From IMG/VR virus record IMGVR_UViG_3300025647_000251, positions 1 to 24,781 of that record: 24,781 bases of DNA. One strand, given 5' to 3'. The DNA comes from a virus. A program made the position numbers and the translations under genes. The notes beneath the pieces are model-generated. The model searched no databases. It was not told the DNA's origin and worked only from the letters and a program-made list of their open reading frames with translations. Shown piece by piece: positions 4,184 through 22,559 of this stretch. Every line of letters starts with the position of its first letter. The stretch's first letter is position 1.

Positions 4184-5086
4184 TCAATCTTCTTCTGCGA
4201 GTTTTTCAAAGAACGATAGATTATCGTCGTCATCATCCCCGAAGGAAACTTCATCGCTTACCTTTGGTGCTGGAGCAGACTTCATCTCAGGTGCCTTAGC
4301 AACTGGTGCTGGTTCATAATCTTCAGCACGAGCAGTTGTATCAGTTGCACCAAGTACACGATCCAACTTCGCCTTCAGTTCCTCATAAGACTTGAAGTGC
4401 TTACGATCAAGGAATTCCTGAAGACTGTACATTGAGTTGTACACCTTTTCAAGTTCGTCATCATCACCATTCAGAAGAGCAGCTGGGGAATCGAACTCTG
4501 ACTTATCATAGTTGCGATAACCTTCCAGATTGCGAATCTTCAGCTTGAATTCAGCACCACCCCAGAAGTCGAAAGGATTGATTGCATCCTCGTCTTCGAA
4601 CTGCGGATTCATTGCTTCGTTCAACTTATCCCAAATCTTCTTGCCATACTTGAACAGGAATACCTTACCTTCATTGGCAGGATTCGCTGGATCCTTTACG
4701 ACGTAGATGTTTGAGTAATAAGAAAGACGACGCTTCTGCTTACGAGCCTGTTCCTTACCAGCATCAGTACCATTGTTCCAAAGCATGCTGTTGTATTCGC
4801 CAACAGGATCCTTTTCGCCGATAGTTGTCAAAGAGTTTTCGATATACCAACCACCAGGACCTTGGAAACCATGGTCAAAGATACGCACGAATGGCAGATC
4901 TTCACCGTTTGGTTCAGGGAGGAAACGAATTACGGCATAACCATTACCAGACTTGTCCACTTCTGGCTTCCAGAAACGATCGTCCGCACCAGATGACTGC
5001 TGCTGACCGCTGGTAAGTTTGCTTGATTCTTGAACTAGACGTGACAGAGAATTGCCACGGGACTTTTTAAGAGATGCAAAAGACAT
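4184..5086 (-). CDS. 32: Single-stranded DNA-binding protein gp32
   Basis: The 300-residue product has the gp32 plan. A basic N-terminus (MSFASLKKSRGNSLSRL) serves cooperative self-association. The OB-type core includes FLFKYGKKIWDKLNEAM and EFKLKIRNLEGYRNYDKS. The tail is very acidic (FGDDDDDNLSFFEKLAEED) and in T4 binds replication partners. I see no Cys/His zinc site in the core, unlike T4 gp32; from memory this is usual for marine relatives. The ATG at 5086 follows AGGT, and the longer in-frame start at 5149 lies inside the promoter -10, so it cannot be used. The protein coats single-stranded DNA at replication forks and in recombination. It has its own promoter and a terminator just downstream. 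Confidence 0.92.
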   Translation of the reverse strand: MSFASLKKSRGNSLSRLVQESSKLTSGQQQSSGADDRFWKPEVDKSGNGYAVIRFLPEPNGEDLPFVRIFDHGFQGPGGWYIENSLTTIGEKDPVGEYNSMLWNNGTDAGKEQARKQKRRLSYYSNIYVVKDPANPANEGKVFLFKYGKKIWDKLNEAMNPQFEDEDAINPFDFWGGAEFKLKIRNLEGYRNYDKSEFDSPAALLNGDDDELEKVYNSMYSLQEFLDRKHFKSYEELKAKLDRVLGATDTTARAEDYEPAPVAKAPEMKSAPAPKVSDEVSFGDDDDDNLSFFEKLAEED

Positions 5087-5148
5087 ATGTATTACCTCGT
5101 ATTGCGTTGTATAAACTTCGTATCCACATTCACATAATATAAGAGACA

Positions 5149-5177
5149 ATTATACTATGATCTAGCATAAATGTCAA
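5149..5177 (-). promoter_or_regulatory. Near-consensus sigma70 promoter of gene 32
   Basis: On the - strand TTGACA (5172-5177) and TATAAT (5149-5154) are separated by exactly 17 bases, a perfect consensus pair. It lies at the 3' end of gene 59 and gives a leader of about 55 nt before the gp32 ATG, room enough for autogenous control by gp32 itself as in T4. Such a strong host-type promoter implies early expression. Confidence 0.88.
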
Positions 5178-5769
5178 GCACTAATTTACGAAACTTAGCA
5201 CTTTCAATTTGTACAGCGTTGTTTAGAAACGGTCTGTACTTATTCATCAGAAACACATGGTCTTGTAACATTTTATCACCGTGCTTTGACCACACTTTAC
5301 CATAACCAACCAAATCATCAAGAATGACCATGGTCTCCAACGAAATCTTTTGCCTCAGCCACGCACGATATAGCAATGGATGCATACCGAGCAATGGATT
5401 CAGCGCCACATCAAGATTTTCCTCTTGATCATTTAGATACATTATATCCTCTTTGAAGGTATAAGTCAAGGAGTCAATCCTCGCCTTCCATTTCTTCAAT
5501 GTAATCAGATTCTCGCCTGACATTAGATTACCAATCCAATGCTCGGAACCTGAGATGTAGTTGGATACAATAAACTCCATAAACTCATCACGCTTAAATT
5601 TGCGTGACATCTTCTCAAAGAAATATCGGTCTTTGCGACCGAGGAAAGTTTCTTCGCTGACTTTTACTTTGCCGTTGTATTTGAAGAAGTTATAGTTCTT
5701 GCGAGTAAAGTGCTGCTGCACCGCAAGATAAGTGCGATATGCATCAAACGCTGACATGTTTTCGCTCAT
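5155..5769 (-). CDS. 59: Helicase loader gp59
   Basis: This 204-residue protein is all-alpha and basic. It begins MSENMSAFDAYRTYLAVQQHF, matching the N-terminus of gp59 loaders, and carries NYNFFKYNGKVKVS and YFISGSEHWIGNL-type blocks, here NYISGSEHWIGNL. In T4, gp59 places the gp41 helicase on gp32-coated forks, and its gene sits next to gene 32 as it does here. I place the start at the ATG at 5769, which overlaps the gp33 stop (TGATG); a second ATG at 5754 (MSAFDAYR) is also possible. The gp32 promoter lies in its last codons. The family call is from recognition of sequence pattern plus gene order. Confidence 0.85.
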   Translation of the reverse strand: MSENMSAFDAYRTYLAVQQHFTRKNYNFFKYNGKVKVSEETFLGRKDRYFFEKMSRKFKRDEFMEFIVSNYISGSEHWIGNLMSGENLITLKKWKARIDSLTYTFKEDIMYLNDQEENLDVALNPLLGMHPLLYRAWLRQKISLETMVILDDLVGYGKVWSKHGDKMLQDHVFLMNKYRPFLNNAVQIESAKFRKLVLDIYARS

Positions 5770-5996
5770 CAAATAGGGAGTTTAGCGCAGGAGCCACCTT
5801 TGATGATGTTTAAATTCTGACACTCAACCATCATCTTTTCTTTGATCAATGGAGAGACCAACTTAGCAGCTGTCTCAACTTCCATTTCATTTTCTTCGCA
5901 CCAGTGTACGATAGCATCAAGATAGGATAGTCGGTAATCTCTTACCATGGTCTCTATAATAATAGAGAACTTGTCTTTCGTCATCACATCGATCAT
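5769..5996 (-). CDS. 33: Late-transcription coactivator gp33
   Basis: This 75-residue protein contains LSYLDAIVHWCEENEMEVETAAKLVSP, the pattern of gp33. In T4, gp33 bridges RNA polymerase and the sliding clamp so that late promoters (TATAAATA) fire. Several TATAAATA boxes in this window fit that system. The 33-59-32 order is the T4-like one. The ATG at 5996 overlaps the upstream stop (TAATG); an ATG four codons later (MTKDKF) is an alternative. Its 3' end overlaps gene 59, so the two are translationally coupled. Confidence 0.82.
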   Translation of the reverse strand: MIDVMTKDKFSIIIETMVRDYRLSYLDAIVHWCEENEMEVETAAKLVSPLIKEKMMVECQNLNIIKGGSCAKLPI

Positions 5997-6211
5997 TAGT
6001 ATCTCTCACAATCATTACAATTAGGAATATTGCATCCTTCACACTTGGTGATTAATGCTCTAGATTTGGTATATGTCCGCAACTTATTGTATGCGTCTTC
6101 GATTGTACTCGGATAGGCGATTATGTTAAAGCCATTGTGTATTTTGTAGTTGCCTCTGTCTGTATCATGATAAACGATATAATTCTGCATTGAGGCAACA
6201 TATTCGAGCAC
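5996..6211 (-). CDS. Small protein with C-terminal Cys cluster, unknown function
   Basis: The GTG at 6211 is preceded eight bases upstream by GGGAG, so I prefer it to the internal ATG at 6190. The 71-residue product has a mixed alpha/beta body (NYIVYHDTDRGNYKI) and ends with four cysteines in CEGCNIPNCNDCE, which could bind zinc or an iron-sulfur cluster. It is the first gene behind the promoter at 6245-6273 and overlaps gp33, so it is expressed with the replication and late-activation genes. I do not recognise a family. Confidence 0.7.
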   Translation of the reverse strand: MLEYVASMQNYIVYHDTDRGNYKIHNGFNIIAYPSTIEDAYNKLRTYTKSRALITKCEGCNIPNCNDCERY

Positions 6212-6276: not shown

Positions 6277-6564
6277 TCAATTAGAGCCGAGGCACTCTTT
6301 TAATTGATCATAACCACCAATGTTGATGGCATCAATATCCTTCATGCGAAGGAAGTTCTTTGCCGTCTCAGATCTTGCACCTGAGCGGCAATAGAGAAGA
6401 TACTTACCGAAGGAGTCTAGGCGTGCAAGATCTTCAGGTGCGCAGTGAATCGCTCCAGGAAAATGCCCATGGTAGAATTCGTGAGCGGTGCGAACATCTA
6501 CTATCGTCCACCCCTGCTCTTCTACCATTTGCTTCAGAATCTTGCATTGTTGCTTGTCTATCAT
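6277..6564 (-). CDS. Single-domain rhodanese (sulfane-sulfur transferase)
   Basis: The 95-residue product is a complete single rhodanese domain. It has the WTIVDVRTAHEFYHGHFPGAIH opening (residues 19-40), the active-site loop CRSGARS with the catalytic Cys at 59, and the closing INIGGY. The loop is the type seen in GlpE and sulfurtransferases that hand sulfane sulfur to other proteins. No signal peptide is seen, so it is cytoplasmic. Its ATG overlaps the dsrA stop (ATGA), so the two are translated together. In sulfur oxidisers a rhodanese-TusA-DsrE relay feeds sulfur to DsrC and DsrAB. Pairing it with dsrA suggests the same route, although tRNA thiolation or general persulfide handling cannot be excluded. 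Confidence 0.9.
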   Translation of the reverse strand: MIDKQQCKILKQMVEEQGWTIVDVRTAHEFYHGHFPGAIHCAPEDLARLDSFGKYLLYCRSGARSETAKNFLRMKDIDAINIGGYDQLKECLGSN

Positions 6565-7895
6565 CCAGCCTTACGCTCAAACCATTTGGCTGCTTCTTGA
6601 TCCCAACCGTCTGTTCTTACATAAGACGACTGGCGTGGTTCACTAACCATATTTGGATCAACATCCAAACCAACACCCTCCAAGAAATTAACAAGACCGA
6701 TACGCTCGATCATCTCACCAGTACGCTCATGCTCCAGTGCATTCTCAGCAAAGAAGTCTAGCGTTTCTTGTGCTAGATCAGCGAGTGCTTCGTAATCCTC
6801 TTCAGTATTTAGTTCCATGAACGGAACAACCACTGTACCCATTGAATCTCCAATCTTTAGGGTGCGCTTACCACCAACAAGAATGGTGACACCACGATCA
6901 TCCCCAGGAGCCAGAATCGGATCGCCTCCGAGACCGACATACTTCTCGGAAAGTGGAGAAGTTGCATTAAGGCAATGCATGCAGCGTACGCAACTGCTGT
7001 TGTCAACAGTAAGTCCATTGTCGTCCCCCAAACTCATTGCTTGTGTTGGGCAGCGAGATACAATGTTTTCCATTACATACTTGCGACCCTTATCTTCAAC
7101 CATTGCTTTCCAAGCGTCCTGATTGATTTTAATATCATCACGCCAAGTACCAATCACTGCGAAGTCAGAACGGTGTACTGCATTCATACAGTCATTTGGA
7201 CAACCAGACACCTTGACCTTAAACTTGTAAGGCAACGCTGGACGGTGCATGTCATCGAGGAACTGATTAACGAGAAGACGGTGTGCTTTTGCTTCATTAT
7301 GCAAACTCATTTCGCAACGAGCACCACCTACGCAAGACATACCAGTACGAACGGCAGGACCAGCACCACCAAGATCAAAACCAATTTCATTTAGTTCGTT
7401 GAAGATCTGTTGAACATGCTTAGTGTCTGCGCCTTGCATCATGATGTCGCCAGACTGACCATGGAATGCGATCAGACCAGATCCACCATTTGCTTCAAAG
7501 GTATCAACCAACTGACGCATCATCTTAGATGTATAGTGATTACCTGCTGGTGGTTGAACACGCAGCGTATGGAATTCAACAGCGTCAGGATACATGTAAG
7601 AACCATCAGAGTTCTTTAGTTCGGTGAAACGAGGAATGATGCCGCCACCATAACCAACGACACCAACGGTCCCACCCTTCCAGTAACCCTTTCGTGTTAC
7701 ATATGACTGTTCAAGGGTGCCGACAACACCTTTCGCCATTGCAGCACCTTCATGGGATCCCTGAGCGAGACGTTTAAGTCCTGAAACGAACGATGGCCAA
7801 GGACCACGCTCTAGTTCGTCAAGGTTTGGGGTTGCAATATCATTGACTTCTGGACGATTGATATTGAGTTTGGTATAACCTGAATTGTCAGCCAT
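6561..7895 (-). CDS. dsrA: Dissimilatory (probably reverse) sulfite reductase alpha subunit DsrA
   Basis: The protein is full length (444 residues) and keeps all cofactor ligands: C188 and C194 (CVGGARC), C232 and C236 (GCPNDC) for the siroheme-[4Fe-4S] site, and C282, C302, C305 and C308 (RCPTQ, CVRCMHC) in the inserted ferredoxin domain. The opening LDELERGPWPSFV and the end WDQEAAKWFERK are family signatures. DsrA pairs with DsrB in an alpha2beta2 enzyme. In sulfur oxidisers it runs backward and releases sulfite from sulfur carried on DsrC. No dsrB lies nearby, so the phage subunit must assemble with host DsrB. AGGAG five bases before the ATG supports the start. The oxidative direction is inferred from context, not read from residues. 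Confidence 0.95.
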   Translation of the reverse strand: MADNSGYTKLNINRPEVNDIATPNLDELERGPWPSFVSGLKRLAQGSHEGAAMAKGVVGTLEQSYVTRKGYWKGGTVGVVGYGGGIIPRFTELKNSDGSYMYPDAVEFHTLRVQPPAGNHYTSKMMRQLVDTFEANGGSGLIAFHGQSGDIMMQGADTKHVQQIFNELNEIGFDLGGAGPAVRTGMSCVGGARCEMSLHNEAKAHRLLVNQFLDDMHRPALPYKFKVKVSGCPNDCMNAVHRSDFAVIGTWRDDIKINQDAWKAMVEDKGRKYVMENIVSRCPTQAMSLGDDNGLTVDNSSCVRCMHCLNATSPLSEKYVGLGGDPILAPGDDRGVTILVGGKRTLKIGDSMGTVVVPFMELNTEEDYEALADLAQETLDFFAENALEHERTGEMIERIGLVNFLEGVGLDVDPNMVSEPRQSSYVRTDGWDQEAAKWFERKAG

Positions 7896-7929: not shown

Positions 7930-7967
7930 TATTTATAGATTATATTCCCTGCCTCCATAAGAAGCAA
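7930..7967 (-). promoter_or_regulatory. dsrA promoters: T4 late box plus possible sigma70 promoter
   Basis: TATAAATA, the T4 late consensus, lies on the - strand at 7930-7937, about 35 bases before the dsrA ATG. Immediately upstream, TATAAT (7939-7944) sits 17 bases from TTGCTT (7962-7967), a weaker host-type pair. The operon may therefore be transcribed both early and late. The late box is the better match. Confidence 0.72.
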
Positions 7968-15216: not shown

Positions 15217-15876
15217 TCAACTGTTGTTATATAGTCGAATCGTTTCTTGTAGATCACTGATCCAGTTGTCACGCTTTTCAATAAACACTTGAGCATCATC
15301 CTCGTGCTCAACGCCAATAATAATGACGATCTTATCTACAGGTATGCCTGTGCGCTCCTCAAACATCACACAGTACGCCGACGCCTGTTGAAAGTAAGAA
15401 TGAATGTATTCTTTTTTCTTCAGCTTGCCTGCCGTTTTGAAGTCGATGACGGAGACTCTTCCATCAAACTCAGCGATACAGTCGACTCGACCAGCCACGC
15501 CCAAGTATGCAGAGTACAACGGTTTCTCCTGCATATAAACAAGACCGACGTGTTCATCCAACACTCGTTTGATGCCGCTAAACATCTCACGCTCGTGTGG
15601 CAGGAACTTCTTTACATCAAGTTCGTTGTTGAGGTAGTCCTCGCACATTTGATGCACGTTAGTACCTCTGCGGGCAGCTTGGGTAGATATACGATTTGCT
15701 TCGGTCTCACCAACTCGCTTGCGCCACTCAGCAATTCCAGCACGAGAAAGAACACCAAGAACAGTAGTAATGGAGGGGAACTTGCCTTCAGGTGTAACAT
15801 ACAAACGGCGACCGTTCCCCTCCTCTGTTAGATACTCTTCTAATTGTAGATCTGTTTTGTGTTCAAATTTTCGCAT
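15217..15876 (-). CDS. PD-(D/E)XK nuclease of the RecB/Cas4 type
   Basis: The 219-residue protein shows the ordered motifs of RecB-like nucleases: RRGTNVHQMCEDYL with the metal-site His at 75, AGRVDCIAEF with D132, VIDFKTAGK with D145 and K147, and YFQQASAY as the QxxxY motif. N-terminal FPSITTVLGVLSR and EWRKRVGE are typical of phage exonucleases of this class. It probably degrades or processes DNA ends in recombination or host-DNA breakdown. Its start lies 37 bases inside phoH, so the two are translated together. The 3' end is followed by about 90 bases without a gene. Confidence 0.82.
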   Translation of the reverse strand: MRKFEHKTDLQLEEYLTEEGNGRRLYVTPEGKFPSITTVLGVLSRAGIAEWRKRVGETEANRISTQAARRGTNVHQMCEDYLNNELDVKKFLPHEREMFSGIKRVLDEHVGLVYMQEKPLYSAYLGVAGRVDCIAEFDGRVSVIDFKTAGKLKKKEYIHSYFQQASAYCVMFEERTGIPVDKIVIIIGVEHEDDAQVFIEKRDNWISDLQETIRLYNNS

Positions 15877-16619
15877 GCTAAAATGTATTCACGGACTAGC
15901 CCACTGCGGACAATATCGTCAGTCTGGAAATTAATTATATCAAAAGATTCCATATTTGTCAAGATATTTAAGAACTGCGAGAGTCCAGACGATTCTTTAA
16001 ATCGTTCAGAAGTGAGATCATCTTGTTTACCATCGCCGCATAGGATAATGCGAGAGTTCTCACCAACACGTGTGATGACAGAATGGAGTTCCTGGAAACT
16101 GAGATTCTGTGCCTCGTCAACCATGATGATAGCATCATCCCATGTTTGACCACGAATAAACGAAGTGGTGACAAACTCGATCTTTCCTTTGTTTTTGAGG
16201 ATGTCATATGCATCTCCCCTGTTAAACATACCTGCCAGCAGGTCACGGTATGGTGCTTCATATACTTTAGTCTTTTCGGTTATGTTCCCAGGAAGGAACC
16301 CCATATCTCTTGTTGGAACAACAGAACGAACAATAATGACCTTTTGTTTGCCATCAACTTTTTCTAGAACATCTCGAATGCCGAGATAAAGAGAAAGGAA
16401 TGTCTTTCCTGTTCCAGCGCAACCGTGAAGTACGATTTGATTGCCAGAACCGTATGATTCAAAAGCCATTCTTTGTGTGTATGTTAGAGGTTCAATTTCC
16501 TCCAGCTTCATACCAGATTGTTGTGTATGTTTTCGTTCTTTTCGTTCCTTTTTTCTCTGGTGTTTTTCGATATAGTATTCAAAGTCTTCTATATTACCGC
16601 CAGATAGATTGTAAGACAT
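15840..16619 (-). CDS. phoH: PhoH-like ATPase
   Basis: The 259-residue protein has a basic N-terminus of about 40 residues, then the PhoH P-loop domain. LTYTQRMAFES starts it, Walker A is GCAGTGKT (residues 67-74), IVRSVVPTRDMGFLPG follows, Walker B is IIMVDEAQN (164-172), and ILCGDGKQDDL is sensor-like. PhoH is among the commonest phage-carried host-like genes in the sea. It probably acts as an RNA/DNA helicase-type ATPase, and its old link to phosphate starvation is unproven in phages. No Pho-like repeat is visible before it. GGAG precedes the ATG. Confidence 0.92.
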   Translation of the reverse strand: MSYNLSGGNIEDFEYYIEKHQRKKERKERKHTQQSGMKLEEIEPLTYTQRMAFESYGSGNQIVLHGCAGTGKTFLSLYLGIRDVLEKVDGKQKVIIVRSVVPTRDMGFLPGNITEKTKVYEAPYRDLLAGMFNRGDAYDILKNKGKIEFVTTSFIRGQTWDDAIIMVDEAQNLSFQELHSVITRVGENSRIILCGDGKQDDLTSERFKESSGLSQFLNILTNMESFDIINFQTDDIVRSGLVREYILACENLNTKQIYN

Positions 16620-21218: not shown

Positions 21219-21869
21219 TTAATCAATTTTTCTTCCTGCAATATAATCTTGTGGAATATTATCGCCTCTTTTTATCTTTTTGTTTTCTTTTCCATTAGTA
21301 ATCCACATTGTTCCATATTGTGAATTTTTCCTTGGATCAGATAATCTTTCCTTTGCCTTTTCGGACATAAGTTTTTTTGTACTTTCTTTATGCGATTTTC
21401 CGTAAAAAGTTCCTTTGGGATTATTTTTCTTCGAAGTTTTGTTTGCAAGTTTTAAATTTTCTTTGACTCGATTTCTAAATTCTTCATCACTATTGTATTT
21501 CGTTAACCATCTTTCGGTTTGCTCTGCTCTTGTCATTAAAGATGACAATCGGTTTTCTGTAAGAAATATTTCTGGATTTGAATTTATATAATCAAATCCG
21601 CCAAACCCACCAATCTTTAAATTATATGTGTTTTCTTCAGAAAGAAAATCTTCATTTACAATTTCTGCTTCCTTAGCATACATATCTTCTGGATTGTCAA
21701 ATACAAACAAAATTTGTTTTTCAAAATTTTCAACGCCATGTTTTTCGATAGAGCGTTTTAAATACTTTCCAGAACCCATATAGTTGTCATCAAGATCGTT
21801 GGTCTTATGCGAACCAATATAGAACTTGCCATTGATCTTGTTTGTTACTTTATAAATTAAATAATGCAT
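21219..21869 (-). CDS. GIY-YIG homing endonuclease (Seg-like) with NUMOD-type tail
   Basis: The 216-residue protein opens MHYLIYKVTNKINGKFYIGSHKTND, the GIY-YIG nuclease signature (LIYKVTN and FYIGSH), with YLKRSIEKHG and AEIVNEDFL further on. The C-terminal half has the DNA-binding repeats usual in these enzymes: FYGKSHKESTKKLMSEKAKERL (NUMOD3-like) and MWITNGKENKKI. Such enzymes cut an allele lacking them and spread by repair. It is free-standing, next to tRNA-Pro, and plainly more A/T-rich than its neighbours, suggesting recent arrival. The longer upstream frame runs through the tRNA and is not real. A late promoter lies 20 bases before its ATG. Confidence 0.9.
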   Translation of the reverse strand: MHYLIYKVTNKINGKFYIGSHKTNDLDDNYMGSGKYLKRSIEKHGVENFEKQILFVFDNPEDMYAKEAEIVNEDFLSEENTYNLKIGGFGGFDYINSNPEIFLTENRLSSLMTRAEQTERWLTKYNSDEEFRNRVKENLKLANKTSKKNNPKGTFYGKSHKESTKKLMSEKAKERLSDPRKNSQYGTMWITNGKENKKIKRGDNIPQDYIAGRKID

Positions 21870-21888
21870 AAGAATCCTCCTATACAAG

Positions 21889-21896
21889 TATTTATA
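21889..21896 (-). promoter_or_regulatory. T4-type late promoter of the homing endonuclease
   Basis: TATAAATA on the - strand, 20 bases before the endonuclease ATG and just after the tRNA-Pro gene. Late control of a homing gene is also seen in T4 seg genes. Confidence 0.7.
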
Positions 21897-21928
21897 AAGT
21901 TCAAGTCTTGACAACAAGACTTTTGTGT

Positions 21929-22000
21929 CTCCCTGCGAGGATTTGAACCTCGGACACATGCTCCCAAAGCATGGATGTTACCAGACTACACCACAGAGAG
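21929..22000 (-). tRNA. tRNA-Pro (anticodon UGG)
   Basis: Acceptor stem CTCTCTG with CAGGGAG (one G-U), anticodon arm CATGC-TTTGGGA-GCATG with UGG, and T arm CGAGG-TTCAAAT-CCTCG. CCA is not encoded, unlike the other three tRNA genes in the window. 72 bases. Confidence 0.92.
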
Positions 22001-22010
22001 ATATTTTTTT

Positions 22011-22559
22011 TCAAGAGGAATTAGAATTCCAATCTACAATTAAGTGTATTCTATTTTCTGAAGATTCATTACGAACGCTATGTACAGCAGAATTGTTTAT
22101 CTCAACAATTTCGCCTGTTTGTATATTTTTTTCTTCATTATCTACAACAAATATTACATTGTTGTTTGTCAAAATTGGTATATGTATTCTGTTATTTGAC
22201 AGAAGACTTTCTCCAGAGTCAGCGTGACTTAATATTGAAGAATTAGGATTTAAGTTTGAAAATAAAATTCTAACAAAATATCCCTCTCCATTGTAAAACG
22301 CATTTAATATTTTCTTTAGTTCTAAGAAAAACTCTTCATTATAATACGAATCAAAAAAACTTGTTTTTGGCGCAACAATATTTCTATTTGCAATTAAAGA
22401 ATCTTTTGACCAAAGAATAGGAATTACACTAGTGTTGACATGTTGCTCATATTCATAATTTCTTCTTTTGGTATATATGTTTTCCCAATCGTTTTTATGC
22501 GAAAACAAATTTTGATAATATGAAACATCAATGTTGCCAATAAAGTTGTAGTTTTTCAT
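22011..22559 (-). CDS. 2-oxoglutarate/Fe(II) dioxygenase-like (aspartyl hydroxylase-type) protein
   Basis: The 182-residue protein has SHADSGESLLSNNRIHIPIL near residues 113-132 and VEINNSAVHSVRNESSENRIHLIVDW at the C-terminus. This is the His-x-Asp ... His ... Arg-Ile-His layout of aspartyl/asparaginyl beta-hydroxylase-like enzymes (H114, D116, distal His, Arg for 2-oxoglutarate). Target unknown: perhaps a virion or host protein. It is markedly A/T-rich and sits alone between two tRNA genes, so it may be recently acquired cargo. No clear Shine-Dalgarno precedes its ATG. Confidence 0.75.
   Translation of the reverse strand: MKNYNFIGNIDVSYYQNLFSHKNDWENIYTKRRNYEYEQHVNTSVIPILWSKDSLIANRNIVAPKTSFFDSYYNEEFFLELKKILNAFYNGEGYFVRILFSNLNPNSSILSHADSGESLLSNNRIHIPILTNNNVIFVVDNEEKNIQTGEIVEINNSAVHSVRNESSENRIHLIVDWNSNSS

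Follow-up and report, generated by a model that had tools for sequence, protein, structure and literature searches.

A putative auxiliary dsrA of oxidative type beside a rhodanese gene in a T4-like phage, and dsrAB pairs in other T4-like phages

The closest described systems are phages and bacteria that encode the alpha subunit of dissimilatory sulfite reductase. The Lau218 podophage (Lauvirus lau218; rdsrA in KJ183191-KJ183193; L009) encodes, like the virus studied here, an oxidative DsrA with the insert of SUP05-type bacteria. The sulfur phages surveyed by Kieft 2021 (PMC8190135) carry auxiliary dsrA with intact motifs and dN/dS <1, many of them in Myoviridae, as is also the case here; NifU, IscA, GrxD and TusA are found near their sulfur genes. 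Rhodanese goes unmentioned in the main text of that survey, which did not identify dsrB and questioned the absence of the dimer partner of DsrA. T4-like ocean phages carry A-type carrier (ATC) and IscU genes (Nishimura 2017, PMC5332604), as do relatives of the present virus, and Fe-S cluster genes in Thioglobus viruses from the Ross Ice Shelf, whose hosts are of SUP05 type, have been proposed to boost sulfur oxidation (PMC10721903); the main text of the former makes no mention of dsrA, dsrB or dsrC, and that of the latter none of dsrA or dsrB. In DsrAB itself, the active siroheme-[4Fe-4S] centre is described as lying in DsrB, the site in DsrA being inactive and structural, with a Thr in place of the Arg of assimilatory enzymes (PMC10229431).

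We analysed a stretch of 24,781 bases (the window), which is an entire virus record and is treated as a virus fragment; contigs and loci compared with it carry L numbers. The minus strand of the window reads, in order, TATAAATA, dsrA, rhodanese, 71-aa ORF, gp33, gp59 and gp32:

7930..7937, minus strand: T4-type late promoter motif TATAAATA, 42 nt before the dsrA ATG
6561..7895, minus strand: dsrA, predicted oxidative-type dissimilatory sulfite reductase alpha subunit, 444 aa (open reading frame, TIGR02064, trees)
7215..7217, minus strand: codon 227 of dsrA, Val in the KFKxK motif (F227V; Val in 5/5 window-clade rows, Phe in 80/80 bacterial rows, the best 80)
6909..6968, minus strand: codons 310-329 of dsrA, loop with the 12-14 aa insert common to SUP05-type DsrA (alignment)
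6277..6564, minus strand: single-domain rhodanese, 95 aa, Cys59 in a CRSGAR loop (PF00581)
5996..6211, minus strand: 71-aa ORF between rhodanese and gp33, also in L002, L007, L008 and L145
5769..5996, minus strand: gp33, late-transcription regulator (phrog_254)
5155..5772, minus strand: gp59, helicase loader (phrog_269, PF08993)
4184..5149, minus strand: gp32, ssDNA-binding protein (phrog_224, PF08804)

Over its whole length the window DsrA scores 513.9 bits against the dsrA model TIGR02064, above the curated cut-off of 392.85, and just 114.3 bits against the dsrB model TIGR02066, below the cut-off of 341.5; phmmer matches it to Archaeoglobus fulgidus DsrA (3mm5_A) with an E value of 2.8e-93. 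A preliminary description of this DNA had claimed a full-length DsrA with eight cysteines, and its coordinates, length and cysteine positions are all correct: residues 188, 194, 232, 236, 282, 302, 305 and 308 supply the CX5CXnCX3C motif and the ferredoxin-domain cysteines. These eight columns, together with R112, R183, K224-x-K226-x-K228 and H389-E-R391, match 80 of 80 bacterial rows (the best 80). The family is already present in PHROGs (phrog_24411, function unknown), and Lau218 DsrA is 72.6% identical over 95% of the window protein, its record, like the window, holding no dsrB over the cut-off. The window gene, as had been proposed, is thus of a known kind, being a further case of phage auxiliary dsrA, here borne by a T4-like phage next to a rhodanese gene. 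An AlphaFold2 model built on a 7-row alignment had a mean pLDDT of 39.5, too low to be used.

Maximum likelihood trees were built from 95 of the 136 aligned rows (larger tree, SH-aLRT support) and from 52 rows (smaller tree, UFBoot/SH-aLRT support), with DsrA matches <300 residues removed, including that of L005. The window DsrA falls in a phage-only clade with L003, L007, L008 and, in the larger tree, L002 (99; 99/99), which has a long stem in the 52-row tree; its sister group consists of DsrA from SUP05-type bacteria (Pseudothioglobaceae) and from phages of these, the Lau218 type included (joint group 99; 100/100). The window clade stands outside the SUP05 DsrA as a whole, as their sister, whereas DsrA of Lau218, a podophage by name, is nested within them. 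The window DsrA is split from two reductive DsrA with support of 100/100 in the 52-row tree and from three, A. fulgidus added, with 100 in the 95-row tree. The reductive-type reading was rejected on this separation, and on these two or three references the trees identify the window DsrA as oxidative (reverse) type. The tree check called for in the preliminary description therefore returned a phage-only placement beside the SUP05 type, and neither a reductive nor a bacterial-only one. DsrA of L005, too short for the trees, was assigned to the window clade by gene order and identity (96% over 260 residues), and L002, with a dsrA identical to that of the window, probably represents the same virus population. 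Near-identity among several viral contigs means that the contig counts given here do not equal independent events. A second phage-only DsrA clade (clade 2; 99; 100/99) lies among other gammaproteobacteria, its exact place being weakly supported (91/74).

The insert common to SUP05-type DsrA, which sits behind the CxxCxxC motif, is present in 41 rows (5 window-clade, 19 other phage and 17 bacterial), absent in 93 and unscorable in 2. Bacterial Pseudothioglobaceae/SUP05 DsrA (for example L058 and L066) belong to the same family and share the insert, at 68-74% identity to the window; they differ in having dsrB directly behind dsrA, while the window dsrA has no dsrB in its record. In the order to which the genome of L066 belongs, 49 of 83 genomes gave a DsrA match, and whole-length matches are an even 68-74% identical, which makes none of the species examined the direct source. 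The nearest bacterial DsrA among the matches listed is 74% identical to that of the window, the bacterial set being the best 80 from a genome scan, so that nearer ones may exist. IscU of L007 is 80-85% identical to its counterparts in 16 of 18 genomes, which is uninformative on the host. Taken from sequence, the host is probably a gammaproteobacterial sulfur oxidiser related to SUP05.

Some records in the trees have titles at odds with their DsrA. L114, titled Candidatus Thioglobus MED-G172, groups with Arenicellales-type gammaproteobacteria and L135, titled Halobacteria archaeon, with Chromatiaceae/Chromatiales-type gammaproteobacteria; the titles look wrong for dsrA, or the bins are mixed. 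Also, L014, L015 and L016 carry tandem dsrA pairs. The two copies of L014, and likewise those of L015, lie in different branches of the SUP05 group (L016 is outside the trees), and this placement suggests two captures in L014 and L015, not duplication.

The carrier can be recognised from its gene content as a T4-like phage, since gp33, gp59 and gp32 stand together next to dsrA and rhodanese and the window also encodes a tail tube (phrog_45) and a baseplate hub (phrog_150). The viral origin that had been read from these bordering core genes is upheld. Elsewhere in the window are two host-type genes, for a PstS-like phosphate-binding protein (PF12849; 12545-13498) and a Gram-negative porin (PF13609; 13665-14504), as well as PhoH (15840-16619), an aspartyl/asparaginyl hydroxylase-like protein (PF05118, 57.9 bits; 22011-22559) and a SegE GIY-YIG-like ORF (21219-21959) that scores below its cut-off.

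The earlier proposal that dsrA is late-promoted holds at the level of the motif. TATAAATA has four copies on both window strands against 0.95 expected (300 first-order Markov draws), and because nearly one copy is expected by chance, a single copy is weak evidence alone. The motif also lies at -41/-42 of dsrA in L002, L007 and L008, and within 200 nt of the dsrA of L004, L006, L010, L014, L015, L016, L022, L023, L052 and L055. It is missing upstream of dsrA in L003, and no exact copy precedes any of the clade-2 dsrA scored by 200 nt or less; late expression is thus not a general property of phage dsrA.

A gp33 gene follows dsrA on the same strand, within 1.3 kb, in 28 of the 49 viral contigs that hold the dsrA 3' end (57 less 8 cut within dsrA); five of these 28 belong to the window clade and 23 to clade 2, a second T4-like lineage. 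Since gp33 is 35-39% identical between the two lineages and their DsrA clades lie apart, two distant T4-like groups hold differently derived bacterial dsrA in the same place. The slot was inspected at 9 of 80 gp59 loci. In L154 it is empty (L154:4567-4774): the neighbours are of window type (36-68% identity upstream, 69% for gp33 and gp59) with neither dsrA nor rhodanese between them, and dsrA is therefore optional. Among the other loci inspected, L144 and L145 are of window type with rhodanese, and their contigs end before dsrA; in L149-L151 and L153 an A-type carrier gene closely precedes gp59, and dsrA is absent from the 3.6 kb listed; and both genes are missing before gp59 in L147 and L152.

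The dN/dS of dsrA (Nei-Gojobori) between the window and L005, L007, L008 and L003 is 0.09, 0.076, 0.066 and 0.067, respectively, the values for L008 and L003 being rough as dS is >1. The codon-level check suggested beforehand thus gives purifying selection (0.07-0.09), which together with the phage hallmark flanks marks the window dsrA, by its sequence, as a phage auxiliary gene. No internal stops were found in the viral dsrA matches, that of L053 being split into two. The window keeps 141 of 142 columns that are invariant in 79 bacterial DsrA (from the best 80, L078 omitted), column conservation being a proxy only for the DsrA-DsrB interface; in a leave-one-out comparison, single bacteria lack 0 to 3 of 142-145 such columns. 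The single column lost by the window is F227V.

The rhodanese scores 46.5 bits against PF00581 (cut-off 22.2), and its neighbours are dsrA, the 71-aa ORF and gp33. Cys59 is presumably the active-site cysteine, and the alignment agrees. Coupling of dsrA to rhodanese had been claimed, and the rhodanese start does overlap the dsrA stop by 4 nt (ATGA), but in some relatives the rhodanese lies within a longer Fe-S module. The order in L007 and L008 is dsrA, ErpA-type carrier, IscU, rhodanese, 71/73-aa ORF, gp33, gp59 and gp32, with ErpA and IscU above their curated cut-offs, and in L003, in another phage context, dsrA is followed by a different rhodanese (45% identical to that of the window), IscU and two A-type carriers. 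We searched 50 records (the window and 49 of 56 viral dsrA records, L012, L013, L016, L019, L023, L053 and L055 being omitted): IscU genes are found in 10, A-type carriers in 26 and rhodanese in 6, which are the six window-clade records. Rhodanese dN/dS between the window and L005, L007 and L008 is 0.109, 0.116 and 0.117; the L002 gene differs by 2 bases, and its value of 0.263 is meaningless on so few.

The order dsrA-erpA-iscU-rhodanese in two close relatives suggests a possible place for the rhodanese in an Fe-S/sulfur module. The window, L002 and L005 have the rhodanese without an IscU or A-type carrier gene, and from its gene neighbourhood the window can be read as a reduced form of a cassette serving DsrA cofactor supply. 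Nearly as likely, and compatible with the role for DsrA that we favour below, is that the rhodanese is unrelated to Fe-S assembly and takes part in a relay of the Rhd-TusA-DsrE2 type feeding DsrC. The Dsr oxidation step is described as requiring rhodaneses of this kind (PMC8359478), and DsrEFH is reported to hand sulfur to DsrC in Allochromatium vinosum (PMC3397948). The relay accounts less well for the rhodanese adjoining iscU, with one or two A-type carriers, in L003, L007 and L008, or for the lack of DsrC in the records of the window, L002, L005, L007 and L008 (the L003 record has two).

The window DsrA had been presented as lacking DsrB, with a search for dsrB or dsrC elsewhere proposed; neither dsrB over the cut-off nor DsrC was found in the incomplete 24.8-kb record, and dsrB over the cut-off is lacking in 47 of the 50 records searched. 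This is, however, no rule for T4-like phages. Three contigs of another lineage, from three metagenomes, have a full-length dsrB (TIGR02066) behind dsrA and before gp33 and gp59:

L043:3397-4500, phage dsrB
L050:997-2079, phage dsrB
L057:259-1332, phage dsrB

These genes score 541-546 bits against TIGR02066 (cut-off 341.5), overlap dsrA by 4 nt in L043 and L057 and by 8 nt in L050 if the first GTG is the start, and have pairwise dN/dS of 0.05-0.10; L057 also carries gp32. They form one clade (SH-aLRT 99) within a gammaproteobacterial group (99) much like the group around clade-2 DsrA. In all, dsrB is found in 3 of 49 viral contigs with the dsrA 3' end, always lying between dsrA and gp33, or in 2 of 48 without L057, which was itself recruited by the dsrB scan; in bacteria it follows dsrA in 77 of 80 loci (best 80), two of the misses (L064 and L097) stopping near the contig end. 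The third, L078 (titled Thiohalomonas denitrificans), has no dsrB in the 10 kb behind dsrA, a stretch long enough to hold it, and its DsrA has a long branch. IMG/VR scans with patterns from a narrow and a broader DsrB alignment gave no further dsrB, although such scans need exact short peptides and may miss divergent genes; none was found in the phage GenBank collection, and no published report of phage dsrB was found in the open-licence PMC literature. The complete dsrAB in T4-like phages is a more surprising result than the window dsrA.

Twenty clade-2 contigs without dsrB have a TTGACA...TATAAT-like stretch (by eye) right behind dsrA, before gp33 or a DsrC-like ORF, and a similar stretch follows dsrB in L043, L050 and L057 (also by eye), which fits joint capture of dsrAB and later loss of dsrB. 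In the 52-row tree L043 and then L050 branch before a dsrB-free group, a suggestive order of events for loss of dsrB after joint capture in clade 2; L050 is placed differently in the 95-row tree, the DsrA of L057 is too short for placement, and L024 and L027, also outside the dsrB-free group, have no dsrB and no gp33 found downstream. A DsrC/TusE-like ORF of ~100 aa lies directly behind dsrA in L025, L028, L029, L032, L041 and L042. We offer tentatively, at somewhat less than even odds, a history in which T4-like phages took whole dsrAB into the slot upstream of gene 33, L043, L050 and L057 kept both in overlapping frames, the more numerous relatives dropped dsrB, and the window lineage independently filled the slot with a SUP05-type dsrA and its own Fe-S/rhodanese module.

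The preliminary description took the intact cysteines to mean that the gene is no relic. The relic reading is indeed rejected, since dsrA is intact with dN/dS of 0.07-0.09, but a working enzyme is not implied, as the catalytic site is that of DsrB, the one in DsrA being structural. The position of Desulfovibrio vulgaris alphaThr136 is Ser148 in the window, located by counting on the phmmer alignment, and is Thr or Ser in 136 of 136 rows, never Arg. With a non-catalytic site, a complete DsrA is half an enzyme: it depends on DsrB, its own contribution being structure, clusters and positively charged contacts, and extra DsrA helps only where DsrA, not DsrB, limits. The reading we favour, with a probability of about 0.65, is that the phage dsrA is an auxiliary metabolic gene whose late-made product would join host DsrB and support DsrAB activity during infection. 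DsrA would be made late, from dsrA behind the late-promoter motif, and would receive [4Fe-4S] clusters from the host and, in relatives, also from phage ErpA/IscU. The resulting DsrAB of phage DsrA and host DsrB could then sustain or raise the oxidation of DsrC-bound sulfur to sulfite, providing electrons for the infected cell, while the rhodanese may move sulfane sulfur to Fe-S assembly or into an Rhd-TusA-DsrE2-DsrEFH-DsrC relay feeding DsrAB. Against this reading stand the 74% identity of the nearest bacterial DsrA among the matches listed, F227V, the non-catalytic nature of the subunit, the patchy late motif and, for the part given to the rhodanese, the different rhodanese of L003.

Several of these points can be turned to an alternative, which we consider unlikely, in which phage DsrA replaces host DsrA or titrates DsrB, DsrC or siroheme, slowing or redirecting the enzyme. 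It draws on the far more frequent retention of the non-catalytic-site subunit (dsrB in 3/49 viral contigs against 77/80 bacterial loci, best 80) and on F227V, fixed within KFKxK in the window clade. However, the motifs that Kieft 2021 names (KxKxK, HeR, CxgxxxC and CxxdC) are retained, many records have Fe-S maturation genes along with dsrA, and dsrB under purifying selection in three T4-like contigs of the other lineage fits support better than blocking. Less probable again is that phage DsrA acts without DsrB, as a homodimer or as another siroheme/Fe-S protein; the 47 of 50 records with no dsrB over the cut-off are what it would predict, but the structural-site signature is kept (Ser148 here; Thr or Ser throughout) and nearly all columns conserved in DsrAB-forming bacteria are retained. 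A recently captured passenger heading for loss would explain the empty slot in L154, yet it is very improbable given low dN/dS over a deep divergence (dS 0.37 to above 1) and the long stem of the phage-only clade. The least weight of all goes to host contamination or a chimeric contig, even for a record that is metagenomic and not from an isolate: L002 and L005, which come from two different metagenomes, share the order dsrA-rhodanese-gp33-gp59, and L007 and L008, both of one metagenome, have it with two extra genes, while bacterial loci have dsrB beside dsrA. The chimera was rejected on this recurrence.

The window adds to the slot upstream of gp33 a second lineage of dsrA, one that in relatives is accompanied by maturation genes, and the empty site of L154 offers a natural control. 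The dsrA-only and dsrAB phages of one lineage are natural pairs for testing the role of the lone subunit. If dsrAB was indeed captured and dsrB dropped, phages would select for the supply and maturation of DsrA, and not for the catalytic subunit.
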